Origin: a virus
Length of the DNA stretch: 25,521 bases
Virus record (IMG/VR): IMGVR_UViG_3300033064_002717
Coordinates: 1 to 25,521 of that record
Direction: 5' to 3' (one strand)
A program made the translations under genes and the position numbers. Positions 786 to 14,387 of this stretch are shown here, piece after piece. Position 1 is the stretch's first letter, and each line of letters opens with the position of its first letter. The notes beneath the pieces were generated by a model. It was not told where the DNA came from. It did no database searches and saw nothing but the letters and a program-made list of their open reading frames with translations.

Positions 786-1376
786 ATGCAGATTCCCGAC
801 GACGTCGCCAAGAAGATTGTTGAGATGATCGACGCGGGTGAGCCGATGAAGTTTGCGGCGGACGCGACGGGAGTACCTATTACTATGATAGAGGAGAGTC
901 TCACGATTTGGCAGGCGCAGTTTGGGTCGACGAAGTACGACCGCGCACGGGAGGCTCTTGCACTTGCCGAGAATTCTTTCACCGCGATAGAGAAGGCGCG
1001 CAAGGCGCGTGATGCGGGCGACACGGATGGTATTTACGAGGCGTTACAGCCGGACATAGCGATGGAGGAGTGTCGGATGGCGTTGACTGATCCAGACTCG
1101 CGGGTACGGACGGCGAACATCAACAGCGCATTGAACCGGAGTGGCAAGCAGGCGATGCAGCAGATCGACGTGTACAGCCACGTTGACCGGATGACGCGTG
1201 ACGAGTTGATTGCGGCAGCTCAGGGGATGTTAGCGAAGAACCCAGACCTCGCATTGACCGATGGCTCGCGCAGCGAGTTGTCGCCCCATGACGAGGGAGG
1301 GGCAACGACCGCTCTTGACTCCGCCGACGAGATCATCGAGGCGGAGCTTGCGCCTGTACTGGAGGACGACGCATGA
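786..1376 (+). CDS. Probable small terminase subunit (DNA recognition)
   Basis: A 196-residue protein. The ATG at 786 is chosen because AGGAG at 774-778 lies 7 bases upstream; an in-frame TTG at 723 has no such signal. Residues 3-45 (IPDDVAKKIVEMIDAG then a helix-turn-helix-like stretch around FAADATGVPITMIEESL) look like a DNA-binding start. A helical middle follows, with an acidic C-terminus ending in EDDA. Small terminases bind the packaging site on phage DNA and hand it to the large subunit. The stop overlaps the start of the large terminase in ATGA, so the two are translationally coupled. The assignment rests on position, length and the putative HTH, not on a diagnostic motif. Confidence 0.6.
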   Translation: MQIPDDVAKKIVEMIDAGEPMKFAADATGVPITMIEESLTIWQAQFGSTKYDRAREALALAENSFTAIEKARKARDAGDTDGIYEALQPDIAMEECRMALTDPDSRVRTANINSALNRSGKQAMQQIDVYSHVDRMTRDELIAAAQGMLAKNPDLALTDGSRSELSPHDEGGATTALDSADEIIEAELAPVLEDDA

Positions 1377-3304
1377 ACGTGAACTTCATGTCGGACAGGC
1401 AACTGAGGGAGTTGGTAAAGACTGGCGCGATGATAGAGGCAGCGCCGATGAACTACGACCCGTTCCCGGCGCAGGACAGGGCGCACCGGTCGCAGTGTCC
1501 GATCACGTTGACTATCTGTGGAAATCGGTGTCTGCGAGGAGATCAGAAGATCGTCACTCGAGAGGGTCATGTGGCCATTGCTGATATCCAGGAAAGTCAG
1601 TTGGTATTGAGTTATTATCAAAAAGCCAATCGGTTTGTGTGGAGTCGAGCAGGTGTTCCATTCGTAAAGGGATCTGACTATCTATACCGCGTAGTTCACG
1701 AAGAAGGAGAGTTTGTTGCTCACGGACTGCACCGGATTTTTTCTTCTGAAGGTAAGTATGAACGGGTGCTTGATTTGGAAGTTGGCGACACGTTAGCAAT
1801 TTCTTCTTCGACCATTGAGGACACTGACCAGAGAGGGTTGCCTTCAGGTGGGCAGCAGGTTACCGCGATTAAGTCAATAGAGAAGTTGCGGAAAAAGGAG
1901 TGGTTCTATGATGTAACAGTAGAAGGAACTCACAATTACGTCACTTCCGACGGAACAACGTCGCATAATTCCGGAAAATCACAATTTGGATGTATGGAAT
2001 TGGTTTGGAGATTACTTGGCACTCATCCGTATAAAGAGTCGAAAGTTCCGATTAAAGCGTCGGTTGGGAGTGTCGACTTTAAAGCGGGTATTCAGGATGT
2101 GATTTTAGAAAAGTTAAGAGTTGCATTGCCGAAGCGAGTAATTAAGTCGAGTCATAAAAATTCGCAAGGGATCATCGATCGAATCGAACTCATTAATGGT
2201 TCAACGGTCGGCATGTATAGCTATGATCAACCGTCAATGAAATGGGAGGGATCGGATTCCGATTTCTGGTGGTTCGACGAGCCACCACCGCGTGATCATT
2301 ACATCGCGGCGGCTCGTGGGTTAGTCGATCGCGGTGGCGACGCGCTCTTCACGATGACGCCGCTTGCGGAGGCATGGATCCACGACGAGCTATGGATCCC
2401 TGGTGTGAAGATCGGGGATCACATCAAGGACGACATCGAGGTTGAGCACAACCAGCGGATCGAGTGTCACAACTGGTCAGCGTACGACAACCCTCACATC
2501 AACCACAACGAGCTGCGCGAGTACGAGAAGCTCTTGACTCCCGAGGAGGCAGCTACTCGGATCAGGGGGGAGTTCTCGGAACTTCTCGGACGCGTGTTCA
2601 AGCAGTTCGGCAAGAAGCAGACCATCGAGTCGTACGACTGGCCGGCAAGGTGGCCGTACATCGAGGGGTTGGATCCGCATGGGTCGAGGGCGCATGCGGT
2701 GGTACGCATCGGCGTCACGCCGAGGGAAGACCTCGTGGTGTACCTTGCGGACAAGGTCCCTGGGACGATGGAGCAGCTCGCGCATGCGATGATAGCGGGG
2801 AGGCCGACAGGCAGCTCTCCGATGACGACCGTTGCGGACACGAGCTTAAACACTGAGGATCAAGAAGCGCAGGTGAACTTGAAGGACGAGCTCGAGGAGC
2901 ACGGCGTCGAGACGGAGCCTGCGTACAAGAAGGACCAGCTCATTGCGGGACTCCACGAGATGAACAAGCGGTTCGGGCTTGCAGCGCGTGGAGAGACAGG
3001 CGGGCTGTACGTGATGGACTGCTGTGTGGACTTGATCTACGAGCTAATGCATCTGCAGTGGGACGAGAAGCGGCCTGAGAAGACGAAGGGGAAGGACGAC
3101 TTGACGGACGCCACGCGGTACGCTGTGATGCGCGATCCGATCGGCATGACGAAGGAGGGCGAGCTTCCAGAGCCGAGCAAGATTGAGACGTACGGGCACG
3201 CGGTGCAACCGAAGCCGCGACCGACGGGTAAGGAGTTCGACTATGGAGATGACGACGAGGACGACGAGCCGGCGGACGTGATGAGTATTGAAGTTCGCTA
3301 TTAA
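1373..3304 (+). CDS. terL: Terminase large subunit, interrupted by a mini-intein
   Basis: The packaging motor ATPase and nuclease that pumps DNA into the procapsid through the portal. The 643-residue precursor would be 496 residues after splicing, a usual TerL length. The Walker A motif is split: GNR at residues 50-52, then SGKS at 200-203, rejoining as GNRSGKS. Walker B is FWWFDEPP with D302 and E303. A coupling motif TMTP lies at 327-330. The RNase H-like nuclease domain shows GLDPHG (D434), VADTS (D489) and KGKDDLTDA (D576, D579). It starts in a 4-base ATGA overlap with the small terminase. By eye, base composition is GC-rich except for about 1545-2270, which covers the intein and the first 100 codons of the C-extein. 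Confidence 0.93.
   Translation: MNVNFMSDRQLRELVKTGAMIEAAPMNYDPFPAQDRAHRSQCPITLTICGNRCLRGDQKIVTREGHVAIADIQESQLVLSYYQKANRFVWSRAGVPFVKGSDYLYRVVHEEGEFVAHGLHRIFSSEGKYERVLDLEVGDTLAISSSTIEDTDQRGLPSGGQQVTAIKSIEKLRKKEWFYDVTVEGTHNYVTSDGTTSHNSGKSQFGCMELVWRLLGTHPYKESKVPIKASVGSVDFKAGIQDVILEKLRVALPKRVIKSSHKNSQGIIDRIELINGSTVGMYSYDQPSMKWEGSDSDFWWFDEPPPRDHYIAAARGLVDRGGDALFTMTPLAEAWIHDELWIPGVKIGDHIKDDIEVEHNQRIECHNWSAYDNPHINHNELREYEKLLTPEEAATRIRGEFSELLGRVFKQFGKKQTIESYDWPARWPYIEGLDPHGSRAHAVVRIGVTPREDLVVYLADKVPGTMEQLAHAMIAGRPTGSSPMTTVADTSLNTEDQEAQVNLKDELEEHGVETEPAYKKDQLIAGLHEMNKRFGLAARGETGGLYVMDCCVDLIYELMHLQWDEKRPEKTKGKDDLTDATRYAVMRDPIGMTKEGELPEPSKIETYGHAVQPKPRPTGKEFDYGDDDEDDEPADVMSIEVRY
1529..1969 (+). mobile_element. 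Mini-intein in the TerL P-loop (147 residues, no homing endonuclease)
   Basis: A protein-splicing element inserted in frame between R52 and S200 of the precursor. Block A starts with Cys1 (CLRGDQKIVTREG). Block B is degenerate around residues 61-71, with His68 kept. Block F is EWFYDVTVEGTHNYV (intein residues 124-138). Block G ends in SHN, giving penultimate His146 and terminal Asn147, followed by Ser as the +1 nucleophile. At 147 residues only the splicing (Hint) domain fits and there is no room for a LAGLIDADG or HNH endonuclease, so it cannot home by itself. Removal restores GNRSGKS, so TerL should be inactive as an ATPase until splicing occurs. The block B position usually held by Thr is His here (HGLH). 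Confidence 0.92.
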
Positions 3305-3315
3305 AGGAGAACGCT

Positions 3316-5565
3316 ATGGGTAGACCGAAGAAGGTACAGACGCAGTTGGTTGATCTTGGAGTTGACCCGATCGACTTGCAACCGAAGGGGATCAGCTTCG
3401 ACGAGGACGAGCTGATGCGTTGGTTCGACAAGAAGATCAACTCGATGGAGGACGATCGCGATCAGTGGTTAGCGCGCAGGAAGCGGTACTTGCTGCAGTG
3501 GGACGACTTCATCACACCGGGGCGGAAGGGTCCATGGCCGGGCGCTGCGAACTTCCGAGTGCCGGTCACGCTCTGGATCTTGAAGCAGATGCATGCGCGC
3601 TTCATGGCGGCTCTGATGGGCGACGGGCAGGGTTGGTTGATCGTGCCGCAGGAGAAGCTTGATCGCAAGAAGGTAGAGCGGATCGATGCAACGATGCGAT
3701 GGGCGATCAACAGCTACTCGAACGAGCGACGCGGCATTCGGCTTACGATCGACGACTGGGTCTGGAACATGCTCGTCGACGGTTGGTCTGTCATGAAGCG
3801 GCAGTGGACGCAGAAGTTCCAGAAGATCTCGTTGACTGCTGAGGAGATGCGGGTCTTCAACGAGAGCCGTGACGACGGAGAGGTGTTGACGAACCTGGTA
3901 CAGATCATGCCTACGTTCGACGGGCCTGGGGTTGAGGTGTTGCAGTCGGAGGACATCCTATTCCCTGGCAAGATGATCGACCCGAGCAACCTGAACGAGC
4001 CGGAGCTCGTAACGCACACGATACCGATGTCGGAGGGCGACATCAAGCTACGCGGCGTACGCAAGTTATGGTCTCAGGATAAGGTAGACAAGATCTTGAA
4101 GAACGGGAAGTTGGAACCGTCCACGGAGACGCTTGGCAACTCAGGAGCTCTTGACGTGAAGCGGTTCAAGGACGCGCTTCAGGGTGTCGACACGATCGAC
4201 AGTGCCGAACCGAGTGAGGAGTATTGCACGCATGAGTTGTACGTGCGGAAGGACGTCGACAACGACGGGTTCGAAGAGGACTTGGTGTTCTGGTACAACG
4301 CGAAGGCTCGAGTGATCGCGAGATGGACGACGCTTGATCGGATCAGTCCGCACTTGCTTGAGCGACCGTTGCACAAGACCGACCTTGGCCGAAGGCCAGG
4401 TCGTGCCTACTCGAAGGGAATCGTGGAGGAGATGTACCCGATCCAGAACGAGGTTGATGCGATGCACAACCAACGGATCGACTTCGGTACGATCGCGAGC
4501 ATCCCGTTCTTCTTCTACAAGCCGCGCACAGGTATGAAGAAGGAGCGCATCACGCTTCGTCCTGGACAGGGCATTCCACTCAACAACCCGCAGCAGGACG
4601 TGTACATCCCGAACTTCCGAGGCGCGACTGCGTTCGGGAATCAGGAAGAGGAGAGGCTCTTGCAGTACGCCGAGCGAGTTGCTGCACTCGGACCGCTTGC
4701 GGCTGGTCAGGCACCGACTCCTGCAGGCCCTGCGTCTACCGCTACCGGCATCACGTCGTTGCTGGCGCAATCGAACATCGTGCTGGATGTTGGATTGAAG
4801 CACGTGCAGCATTCGTACGAGCAGTACCTCAAGGGGTTGCATGCGGACTTGAGCATGAAGATGCCGGACGGTCTTGAGTTCCGACTCCTTGGCTCGAAGG
4901 GTGAAGAGCTGTTCGATGAGAAGGGTGATCAGTTAACGGCGAAGTCAAGTCGGTTAGACATCTTCGCATCGTTGGACTTCACGTTACTTGCGAACTCGCA
5001 GACGTTGAATCGCGAGGTAGTGAAGCAAGACGCGCTCTTGATGGCGCAGACGCTCTTCAACCCGATGAACATCCAGGCTGGGATCATAACGCCTGAGAAC
5101 ATCTACAACATCAACAAGAACATCTTAACTACACGCGGCACGCTTGACGTCGACTCGTTCATCACGAACCCGCAACAGAACGAACGACCGTTGTCCATAT
5201 ATAATGAAGTAGCGTTGGTGTTACAGGGCGACATGCCTCGCATCATCATGGGCGATGATCACGATGGGAAGATCAAAGCGTTGACTACGTTCGTTGAAGG
5301 CCCTGTTTTTCAGCAGATGCTTTCGGACGGTAGGGCGAGCGGCGAAACGCAGAAGTTATTTGAGAGGGTGATTAAGAAACACGAGGACGTACAGAAGGCA
5401 GTGCAGGCACAGGCGATGCAAGCGAACGTGACTGGTCAACAGGTGTCACCGACGTTGGGTGCTCGCATGACAGGGGAAGTTGCGCAACAGCAGGGCCAGG
5501 GGTTGGCACAAGCGGAACAGCAGCAAGGAGCGGACCCGGGGACAATACCGTTACCTGGGGAATAG
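3316..5565 (+). CDS. Portal protein
   Basis: A 749-residue protein directly after the large terminase, with AAAGGAG 7 bases before the ATG. Portals form the dodecameric ring at one capsid vertex that docks terminase and the neck. The length and the pattern (acidic helical start, WPGAANFRVPVTLWILKQMH at about residues 73-92, a central FWYNAKARVIARW beta segment, long helical region, Gln-rich tail) fit large portals of short-tailed phages. The C-terminal 60 residues are rich in Gln and Ala and end TIPLPGE. That ending resembles FPLPGDG at the start of the scaffold-like protein two genes downstream. The family call rests on position, size and general pattern. Confidence 0.82.
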   Translation: MGRPKKVQTQLVDLGVDPIDLQPKGISFDEDELMRWFDKKINSMEDDRDQWLARRKRYLLQWDDFITPGRKGPWPGAANFRVPVTLWILKQMHARFMAALMGDGQGWLIVPQEKLDRKKVERIDATMRWAINSYSNERRGIRLTIDDWVWNMLVDGWSVMKRQWTQKFQKISLTAEEMRVFNESRDDGEVLTNLVQIMPTFDGPGVEVLQSEDILFPGKMIDPSNLNEPELVTHTIPMSEGDIKLRGVRKLWSQDKVDKILKNGKLEPSTETLGNSGALDVKRFKDALQGVDTIDSAEPSEEYCTHELYVRKDVDNDGFEEDLVFWYNAKARVIARWTTLDRISPHLLERPLHKTDLGRRPGRAYSKGIVEEMYPIQNEVDAMHNQRIDFGTIASIPFFFYKPRTGMKKERITLRPGQGIPLNNPQQDVYIPNFRGATAFGNQEEERLLQYAERVAALGPLAAGQAPTPAGPASTATGITSLLAQSNIVLDVGLKHVQHSYEQYLKGLHADLSMKMPDGLEFRLLGSKGEELFDEKGDQLTAKSSRLDIFASLDFTLLANSQTLNREVVKQDALLMAQTLFNPMNIQAGIITPENIYNINKNILTTRGTLDVDSFITNPQQNERPLSIYNEVALVLQGDMPRIIMGDDHDGKIKALTTFVEGPVFQQMLSDGRASGETQKLFERVIKKHEDVQKAVQAQAMQANVTGQQVSPTLGARMTGEVAQQQGQGLAQAEQQQGADPGTIPLPGE

Positions 5566-12868: not shown

Positions 12869-13120
12869 ATGGGTGTCATTAAAGATGTGGTTGCGATGAA
12901 GAAATTGGAAGACTTGGTTGTTGTGAAGCCTGCAAAGTCAGCGTTACCTGATCTGACTACTGGAAAAATAGAAGCTGCTATCCCGTTGCTCAGAGAAGTA
13001 GAGAAGAACAACGGACACCTAGCCATTGCTTCAGTTGTTGGCCTTACTCAAGCACAGGTTGCGGAAATTCACGTAGCCATGAAGGAGCAGATCAATGCCC
13101 TTACGGTATCCACAAAGTAA
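12869..13120 (+). CDS. Small helical protein with HTH-like C-terminus
   Basis: An 83-residue protein with AGGAGG 5 bases upstream. It begins GVIKDVVAMKKLEDLVVVKP. Residues 50-75 (GHLAIASVVGLTQAQVAEIH) could form a helix-turn-helix. Its last 26 bases overlap the next gene. Whether it binds DNA or is a small virion component is not known. Confidence 0.6.
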   Translation: MGVIKDVVAMKKLEDLVVVKPAKSALPDLTTGKIEAAIPLLREVEKNNGHLAIASVVGLTQAQVAEIHVAMKEQINALTVSTK

Positions 13121-14387
13121 AAGTGAACAAGTTGTCTTTCGTGATAATATGTTTAATTCTACATACACCGAGGGATTACAGGGTGTTTTGTCTGGGGCTC
13201 CTACATATTCAAACGGTCTTGTTCTTAATGGAACAGATCAATACGTCACGTATGACATTGCAGGCTTTTACGCAAAGACTGAGTTGACGTTTGAGCTTTG
13301 GTTTACGCCAGATTTTGACTATGACTACGACGCTGAGGTTGCATTTTTTTCTACGAGTAGCAATGATTACTACCTCAGAAAAAACAACAATGCTGCAAAT
13401 AACACGATTTCAATAGACGTTGGCAACGTAGCAGTCGCAACGATACCTTCTGCTTCTTATTCTGCACATTGGAATGTTGGCGTTAAGAATCACATTGTTG
13501 TTGCGTCAACATCTGGTTCTACTGATGTTTATCTCAACGGCAATCTCATACTGGATGCTGATGCGAGTGCATGGAATCCGAGGGAAATTGCTAATCTATA
13601 TGTCGGAGCTGACGACACTCCGTTGGGATTTTTTGATGGTACGATACATTCGTTTAGCATCTTGGCTTTTCATGCGACTGCAGCAGAAGTGGCTGACATG
13701 TACATCCAGCGTACGTTTAAAAAGACAGATGCTCTTGAGGCTTTAGTATCATTGCCTTTGAAGTCTCATTACGATGATGCCGGAGTTGAGAAGACTTTAA
13801 ATCTAGGGACCGGCGGCGATGTTCTTTGGGGAAATGGAGCCACTGCTGCAACCATGCCTGAGCAGGTAACTCCTCATGGCTTTAGGTCTGTCAGCAATGA
13901 TTACGTGACTTGCACGAGCGGTGTTTGCGATGGTCTGTCTGCGATTACAGTTTCTTTCGTGATAAAAGTTAATACTTTAAGCCAAGGTAATGTTAGACCT
14001 TTTACGATCAGGGAAGACGGTGGAGCATCTGGCTTTGCTGTATACAGTCCTGGCGGTGATACTTATTGGATGCTGTGGAATGCTGGTGGAGCTAATGCTG
14101 ACACTGGTGTTTTGAGAGATCGTTCGACGCAGCATATCATTATGGTTGGCAATGGAATTGGCGCTGGTGTTGGGAATGCTAATATTTATTTTTACTTGAA
14201 CGGTGAATTAGCTAATCAGAGCACTGGAACTACGCTTAACAACTTGGGCGGAGATTGTTTGTTTGGTTATACTACGGGCCTTGAGGGAGATTATTTCTTC
14301 CCAAGGATTTTCGGGTTTGAATTAACCCCCGTGCAGATAAGGGAGTTGCACGATAGGGATATGCGAAGGCTTAATTCTGCATCGTAG
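13095..14387 (+). CDS. Tandem LamG-like (lectin-like) structural protein
   Basis: A 430-residue protein starting inside the previous gene, with GAAGGAG 7 bases before its ATG. Two lectin-like jelly-roll domains are visible, about residues 35-205 and 215-425. The first has GLVLNGTDQYVTYD, LTFELWFTP, DVYLNGNLILD and ATAAEVADMY. The second has ITVSFVIK, IYFYLNGELAN and LTPVQIRELHDRDM. The pattern 'strand - FxLWF - YLNG - G.I....I....LT..E...LY' is typical of LamG domains. A phage version would bind surface sugars or decorate the virion. The DNA is AT-richer than the packaging genes by eye. Confidence 0.7.
   Translation: MPLRYPQSKSEQVVFRDNMFNSTYTEGLQGVLSGAPTYSNGLVLNGTDQYVTYDIAGFYAKTELTFELWFTPDFDYDYDAEVAFFSTSSNDYYLRKNNNAANNTISIDVGNVAVATIPSASYSAHWNVGVKNHIVVASTSGSTDVYLNGNLILDADASAWNPREIANLYVGADDTPLGFFDGTIHSFSILAFHATAAEVADMYIQRTFKKTDALEALVSLPLKSHYDDAGVEKTLNLGTGGDVLWGNGATAATMPEQVTPHGFRSVSNDYVTCTSGVCDGLSAITVSFVIKVNTLSQGNVRPFTIREDGGASGFAVYSPGGDTYWMLWNAGGANADTGVLRDRSTQHIIMVGNGIGAGVGNANIYFYLNGELANQSTGTTLNNLGGDCLFGYTTGLEGDYFFPRIFGFELTPVQIRELHDRDMRRLNSAS

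Follow-up and report, generated by a model that had tools for sequence, protein, structure and literature searches.

The stretch of DNA analyzed here, hereafter the window, is IMG/VR record IMGVR_UViG_3300033064_002717, positions 1-25,521, a viral contig of 25,521 bases that is probably a genome fragment. It contains terL, the gene of the packaging ATPase TerL, whose open reading frame (ORF) is interrupted within the Walker A P-loop by a mini-intein; the opposite strand of this intein carries the apparent fossil of an HNH endonuclease gene. TerL is followed by an SU10-like portal, and a major head protein lies further on. A near-identical contig (L003, 99.5% over 6.1 kb) holds the same intein, with 100% identity at the protein level. 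The features of the locus are listed below.

1373-3304, plus strand: TerL precursor ORF, 643 amino acids (496 after splicing); PF03237 E-value 1.5e-11, phrog_2 E-value 7e-18
1373-1528, plus strand: N-extein, last residues TICGNR, GC content at third codon positions (GC3) 0.81
1511-2335, plus strand: AT-rich tract, the intein and about 300-370 bp of C-extein (change-point fit)
1517-1519, plus strand: Cys at position -4, replacing the first Walker A Gly (comparison with 80 intein-free relatives)
1529-1969, plus strand: mini-intein, 147 amino acids, C1...H146 N147 (PF14890, TIGR01443, AlphaFold2, Foldseek to DnaB and RecA inteins)
1554-1799, minus strand: antisense open frame left of the HNH fossil, in the family register to the sense frame (ORF list)
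1611-1856, minus strand: fossil of the C-terminal part of the antisense HNH gene, family residues about 137-223 (tblastn, hidden Markov model)
1730-1732, plus strand: block B His68, invariant in the family
1805-1867, plus strand: linker joining the two splicing half-domains, the presumed remnant of the endonuclease insertion (low-confidence part of the model)
1910-1936, plus strand: block F core, D128...H135 N136 (alignment)
1964-1969, plus strand: block G penultimate His and terminal Asn (alignment)
1970-1981, plus strand: SGKS, the remainder of Walker A, with Ser+1 as putative second nucleophile (GGNR/SGKT is contiguous in intein-free relatives)

The intein splits the TerL P-loop as GNR/SGKS (the slash marks the insertion point), and its excision from the precursor leaves a length, computed from the ORF, of 643-147 = 496 residues. 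An earlier note on this DNA had already recognized a mini-intein in terL, and its coordinates, Cys1 (1529), block F, His146-Asn147 (1964-1969), Ser+1 (1970) and both protein lengths agree with ours, as does its placement of the insert inside Walker A, where the flanking landmarks indicate that splicing would be required to form the TerL P-loop. The Hint-domain profile search that it proposed returns the splicing-domain profile PF14890 (Intein_splicing) with an E-value of 8e-8 and 32.6 bits, slightly below the curated cut-off of 35.8, and TIGR01443 (intein_Cterm) with an E-value of 1.8e-6 and 28.0 bits, above its 15.6-bit cut-off; TIGR01445 (intein_Nterm) matches weakly, below cut-off (E-value 0.006).

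Structurally, an AlphaFold2 model built from an alignment of 43 family members adopts the HINT fold, with a mean predicted local distance difference test score (pLDDT) of 92.5 and a predicted template modeling score of 0.85, and is weak only at residues 91-110 (pLDDT 66-67). Foldseek yields 65 PDB matches at E-values of 0.001 or below; the top ones are inteins, the best being the Ssp and Npu DnaB and Mtu RecA inteins (E-values down to 3.5e-10). In another search, a hit to PDB entry 4cnl, a pneumococcal surface protein repeat, is a chance match. The DnaB, DnaX and RecA mini-inteins (4O1R, 6FRH, 7CFV, 2IMZ) share the fold and the Cys1, His, His-Asn set with the window intein, but they are only about 18-22% identical to it and reside in other host proteins. 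Across the 43 aligned members, C1, H68, N136, H146 and N147 do not vary. In the block B TxxH motif, the Thr position is occupied by His in the window and by Thr in only 2 of the 43 members; because this Thr is missing nearly family-wide as well as here, its absence is no sign of decay. The insert is a predicted class-1-like mini-intein with a confidently modeled HINT fold, and the continuous ORF rules out a split intein acting in trans.

The P-loop is uninterrupted in all 80 scored P-loops of the nearest TerL relatives of the window. Position -4 is Gly in 78 of these intein-free sequences, Ala or Ser in the other two, and Cys in none (0/80); the Walker A motif of the window TerL, with Cys in place of its first Gly, is degenerate.

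An alignment of the window intein with two phage relatives, used as a query against IMG/VR, recovers 71 matches: the near-identical contig, one match to the C-terminal part only, and 69 others. All 69 loci, together with Pectobacterium phage Taid and Pseudoalteromonas phage PHS3, carry the intein at the same TerL site, GxxG/SGK[ST]. The residues before the site vary (GPVG, GGAG, AGFG etc.), and those after it read SGK or TGK. Five members (L009, L011, L030, L031, L033) have STKT after the intein, so that Walker A deviates in that TerL lineage while the intein site is kept. Most family inteins are 275-300 residues long. The window intein shares 29-43% overall sense-strand identity with 42 members (best tblastn E-value 2e-22). 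No plasmid relatives were found, and a match in an uncultured phage (LR745208) is an intein in a DnaX-like protein, outside this family.

What defines this family is a second gene, encoded opposite the intein. A frame homologous to the HNH of PHS3 lies antisense in or over the intein in 69 of 69 loci and in Taid, always in one fixed register to the sense frame, and in full-size inteins its product is 38-83% identical to the PHS3 HNH protein over most of its length. The Pfam HNH_3 model scores above cut-off in four of five antisense proteins tested and below it in the fifth. Across 38 antisense proteins, H94 R95, D113 H114 D116 G117, N122 and N126 are invariant and E93 is nearly so. The predicted protein carries a helix-turn-helix at its N-terminus, then the HNH core and, toward the C-terminus, a well-predicted helical region; the C-terminal third of the gene overlaps the N-terminal splicing half-domain, and it is opposite this half-domain that the helical region is encoded. 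Its top PDB match is the intron-encoded I-HmuI (probability 0.99, E-value 0.012), with which it has in common an HNH core with helical DNA-binding parts, at 18% identity. Unlike I-HmuI, it has an N-terminal helix-turn-helix, and its C-terminal helical region is coded over a splicing domain.

Existing annotation bears traces of this arrangement. In PHS3, an "HNH endonuclease" is annotated on the opposite strand inside the terL ORF, and TerL is trimmed accordingly, its start placed after the intein so that the N-terminus is missing. In E. coli MEI003, the intein-bearing terL is flagged as a pseudogene without its N-terminus, and the antisense HNH is annotated as a plain gene. These automatic misreadings concern L163:2101-3096 (minus strand) and 3084-4388 (plus strand) and L005:3041-3751 (minus strand).

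Nucleotide diversity was measured by sense codon position in 41 non-redundant full-length inteins; sense position 2 is the wobble position of the HNH frame. The two segments that code in the sense only have values of.31/.20/.68 (residues 1-13) and.32/.23/.57 (blocks F/G) at positions 1/2/3; the overlap (residues 15-92) has.29/.32/.35; and the linker (residues 93-246), where only the HNH is encoded, has.37/.61/.30. The fast position thus moves from sense 3 to sense 2 exactly where the HNH alone is coded, and all three are slow in the overlap. Position 2 minus position 3 amounts to -0.48 in residues 1-13, -0.03 in the overlap, +0.31 in the linker (95% interval 0.27 to 0.35) and -0.35 in blocks F/G; only for the overlap does the bootstrap interval include zero. 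Over the linker region, mean identity is 0.59 for the antisense HNH and 0.27 for the sense strand. Furthermore, a Shine-Dalgarno-like site precedes 32 of 40 HNH starts, against 9.8 expected by shuffling. From the codon-position diversity, the antisense identity and the Shine-Dalgarno excess, the antisense frame is therefore taken to be a real gene, and the family shows the marks of selection on both the splicing frame and the antisense HNH frame.

The window retains part of this gene. Read on the minus strand from 1856 down to about 1611, the intein encodes AAHLKATLSGQCPQWSKKK...APVHTYLQKKKSGAVREQQ, which is 40% identical to residues 134-197 of the Taid HNH (tblastn E-value 4e-8) and scores 34.4 bits with the family HNH hidden Markov model. 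None of 6000 synonymous recodings of the intein (2000 under each of three schemes) reaches this score. The HNH core and the helix-turn-helix are absent from the window intein, and tblastn and hidden Markov model searches gave no credible HNH endonuclease match in the window besides the relic. The earlier note had called the intein endonuclease-free: this stands insofar as there is no working endonuclease, but the insert does contain an antisense HNH relic. Intermediate stages occur within the family: L034 has a premature stop, L013 and L054/L056 (203-207 amino acids) lack the N-terminal part, and L076 (173 amino acids) keeps a short decayed HNH remnant. The window intein is an apparent deletion derivative at the end of this decay series, a decayed descendant rather than an active member. 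The earlier note, which missed the antisense relic, the intein family and the conversion-like tract described below, had also taken the retention of the splicing domain only as a hint of regulation; the linker instead appears to be a fossil of the antisense HNH gene, so that decay after homing explains why the endonuclease is missing.

The composition of terL changes around the insertion. GC3 falls from the N-extein value to 0.435 in the intein and 0.44 in the first 104 C-extein codons, and is 0.785 beyond, with change points at 1511 (1490-1523) and 2335 (2236-2347) and a log-likelihood gain of 49.7 nats. The GC3 difference between the tract segment and the rest of TerL is -0.343 in the window; for the same segment in 41 intein-bearing relatives it averages -0.008 (standard deviation 0.069, minimum -0.19). 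This AT-rich tract is consistent with co-conversion on one side, in the 3' flank, as the intein invaded. TerL relatives are also ranked differently by the tract and by the rest of the protein (rank correlation -0.41 against a median of 0.76), which we do not claim as phylogenetic proof of a conversion tract, as the whole query was used to choose the relatives and both trees place the window on a long branch. Along 700-25521, GC3 is mosaic, at about 0.73-0.79 in the TerS-like gene, the TerL flanks and the portal and 0.32-0.42 in several other genes, which suggests module exchange.

Prophages provide filled and empty alleles of the site. Enterobacter cloacae DSM 26481 and E. coli MEI003 carry the intein with its antisense HNH, and E. 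coli ET729 has an empty site in which GFG/SGKT is joined and TerL is intact. Over 2.2 kb, the ET729 flanks and the E. cloacae locus share 84% identity, and this pair of alleles lends indirect support to homing or movement of the family. Between the MEI003 and ET729 flanks no clear conversion tract is seen, identity being mostly 60-80% over 1.5 kb downstream with no step near the insertion site.

Taken together, the locus very probably holds a cis-splicing P-loop mini-intein that descends from the antisense-HNH phage family, has had its HNH deleted, and lies in an AT-rich tract probably left by the invasion. Judging from the conserved residues and the fold, splicing would follow the class-1 pathway, with Cys1 and Ser+1 as nucleophiles and cyclization of Asn147, and TerL would possess a continuous P-loop only once the intein is spliced out. 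In the parent form, a separate antisense HNH gene would be nested in the intein, its last third held in common with the N-terminal splicing half-domain; the splicing domain would render the insertion harmless to TerL, and the HNH protein would nick or cut terL alleles that lack the intein, with the result that it is copied into them, as the motifs, the selection pattern and the filled and empty alleles suggest. In the window, deletion of the helix-turn-helix and HNH core would have ended homing, and the splicing domain would be kept because TerL needs it. The simplest view of the AT-rich C-extein stretch (about 300-370 bp) would be a conversion tract of an invasion from an AT-richer terL.

Several observations weigh against this interpretation, and the alternatives draw on them. 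When scoring is confined to residues 1-92, the antisense score is matched by 70 of 2000 synonymous recodings; it is thus the linker segment that makes the fossil signal decisive. With 29-47% identity, the window intein sits on a long branch and has no firm place within the family, and no intein-free close relative of the window virus was found. It could be argued that this is an ordinary primary mini-intein that never had an endonuclease, and that the antisense similarity simply follows from homology on the sense strand; the splicing domain alone accounts for the sense-strand protein, and the antisense signal on residues 1-92 is weak. This is very unlikely, and already strongly disfavored, given the recoding result for the whole intein and the linker segment AAHLKATLSGQCPQWS, which matches HNH residues about 137-152 despite low family sense identity there. 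For the tract, the support comes from composition only, amino-acid trees of TerL built from the tract and from the rest do not resolve the donor, and GC3 varies elsewhere in this mosaic genome, large genes ranging from 0.32 to 0.74. A serious if less likely source of the AT-rich tract is local codon preference, or else an earlier recombination event with no connection to the intein. In the relatives that bear the intein, however, GC3 does not drop in this segment of TerL, and the 5' edge lies at most about 40 bp from the insertion point.

Two further alternatives concern function, and both are improbable. The earlier note had proposed that the intein is retained as a post-translational switch, with packaging timed or conditioned by splicing (redox, temperature or metal). 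The P-loop position would make TerL activity depend on splicing, and the Cys four residues before Cys1, at a near-invariant Gly position, makes a disulfide trap conceivable; this Cys would leave redox control open and a redox test reasonable, no more. The proposal nevertheless finds no support: no condition-dependent feature is seen, mycobacteriophage TerL inteins splice quickly in assays (PMC5050341), decay explains the endonuclease loss, and precise loss of an intein from an essential gene is hard for phages. As for the antisense HNH protein, HNH proteins that adjoin terminase genes can be parts of the packaging machinery (cited in PMC11855218), and here the gene lies inside terL, so that a packaging co-factor rather than a homing endonuclease might be envisaged. 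Yet the gene is nested in the intein and absent at the empty site of ET729, whose TerL is intact, its top structural match is a homing enzyme, and in several members it has decayed with the TerL frame still open.

The elements combined here have separate precedents. The statement in the earlier note that TerL P-loops are recurrent intein sites is documented for mycobacteriophages, in which the TerL inteins TerL1-a and TerL1-b splice and the BAKA and Bethlehem inteins cut intein-free terL (Kelley et al. 2016, PMC5050341). As in the window, these inteins occupy the TerL P-loop, and splicing is required for ATPase function. TerL1-a separates the Lys of GKT from the Thr, and TerL1-b lies one residue away (PMC5050341), whereas the site of the window family, GxxG/SGK[ST], is three residues N-terminal of the TerL1-a site. 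The mycobacteriophage endonucleases are in-frame LAGLIDADG domains; that of the window family is an antisense HNH gene, lost in the window. The ShiLan domain and Pacc40 insertions in phage methylases are likewise open in-frame insertions in phage genes with an HNH in another frame, and they spread by homing (Arsenault, Gosselin, Gogarten 2025, PMC11855218). Their HNH is described as another reading frame of the transcript of the host gene; no ribosome-binding site is detectable for it, and a splicing domain is absent (PMC11855218). The HNH of the window family is encoded on the other strand, in most members behind a Shine-Dalgarno-like site, and shares DNA with an intein splicing domain. Group I introns, such as those in Porphyra nuclear rDNA, also carry an endonuclease gene opposite a self-splicing element, and degenerate copies are common, but these introns are RNA and need not stay open as protein (PMC2585584). 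In the window family, the strand opposite the HNH is read through as part of an essential protein. TerL P-loop inteins, out-of-frame HNHs and antisense intron endonucleases are therefore known, whereas an antisense endonuclease gene in an intein is apparently unreported: none was found in the literature searched, one 2025 preprint on non-canonical intein architecture aside.

In descriptions of mobile inteins, the endonuclease forms part of the spliced protein, as an in-frame domain. In dozens of phages, and also in prophages, the present family appears to encode mobility on one strand and splicing on the other strand of the same DNA, with measurable selection on both frames where they overlap. 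We tentatively suggest, at somewhat less than even confidence, that the family keeps its homing endonuclease as an independent opposite-strand gene with its own promoter and timing, uncoupling homing from TerL expression; that the DNA shared by the HNH C-terminus and the splicing domain restrains drift or loss of either; and that loss of the HNH, as in the window, ends mobility and frees the splicing domain to evolve fast. If true, this fast evolution would explain the long branch of the window intein. For antisense dual coding, and for the question of how selfish elements delay the loss of their endonuclease, the family is a clean natural test case, and its arrangement explains recurrent annotation errors such as those in MEI003 terL and PHS3 TerL. 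The window itself illustrates a late phase of the homing cycle, in which a fossil would mark the former place of the endonuclease.

Elsewhere in the window, a GC-rich 14-mer, CGCGCCACGCTGTG, is repeated in tandem in 5.4 copies at 196-271, upstream of the packaging genes; contig L003 aligns there in two overlapping pieces, and the copy number may differ. A repeat of CACACAACACGCAA (561-593) precedes the TerS-like ORF. In the structural block, 13095-14384 encodes a 430-residue protein with a Laminin_G_3 (concanavalin-A-like) domain (E-value 5.8e-21), a possible host-binding or decoration protein. The product of 18313-19908 matches phrog_3287 (virion structural) and phrog_5107 (amidase), and is possibly a virion-linked lytic enzyme.
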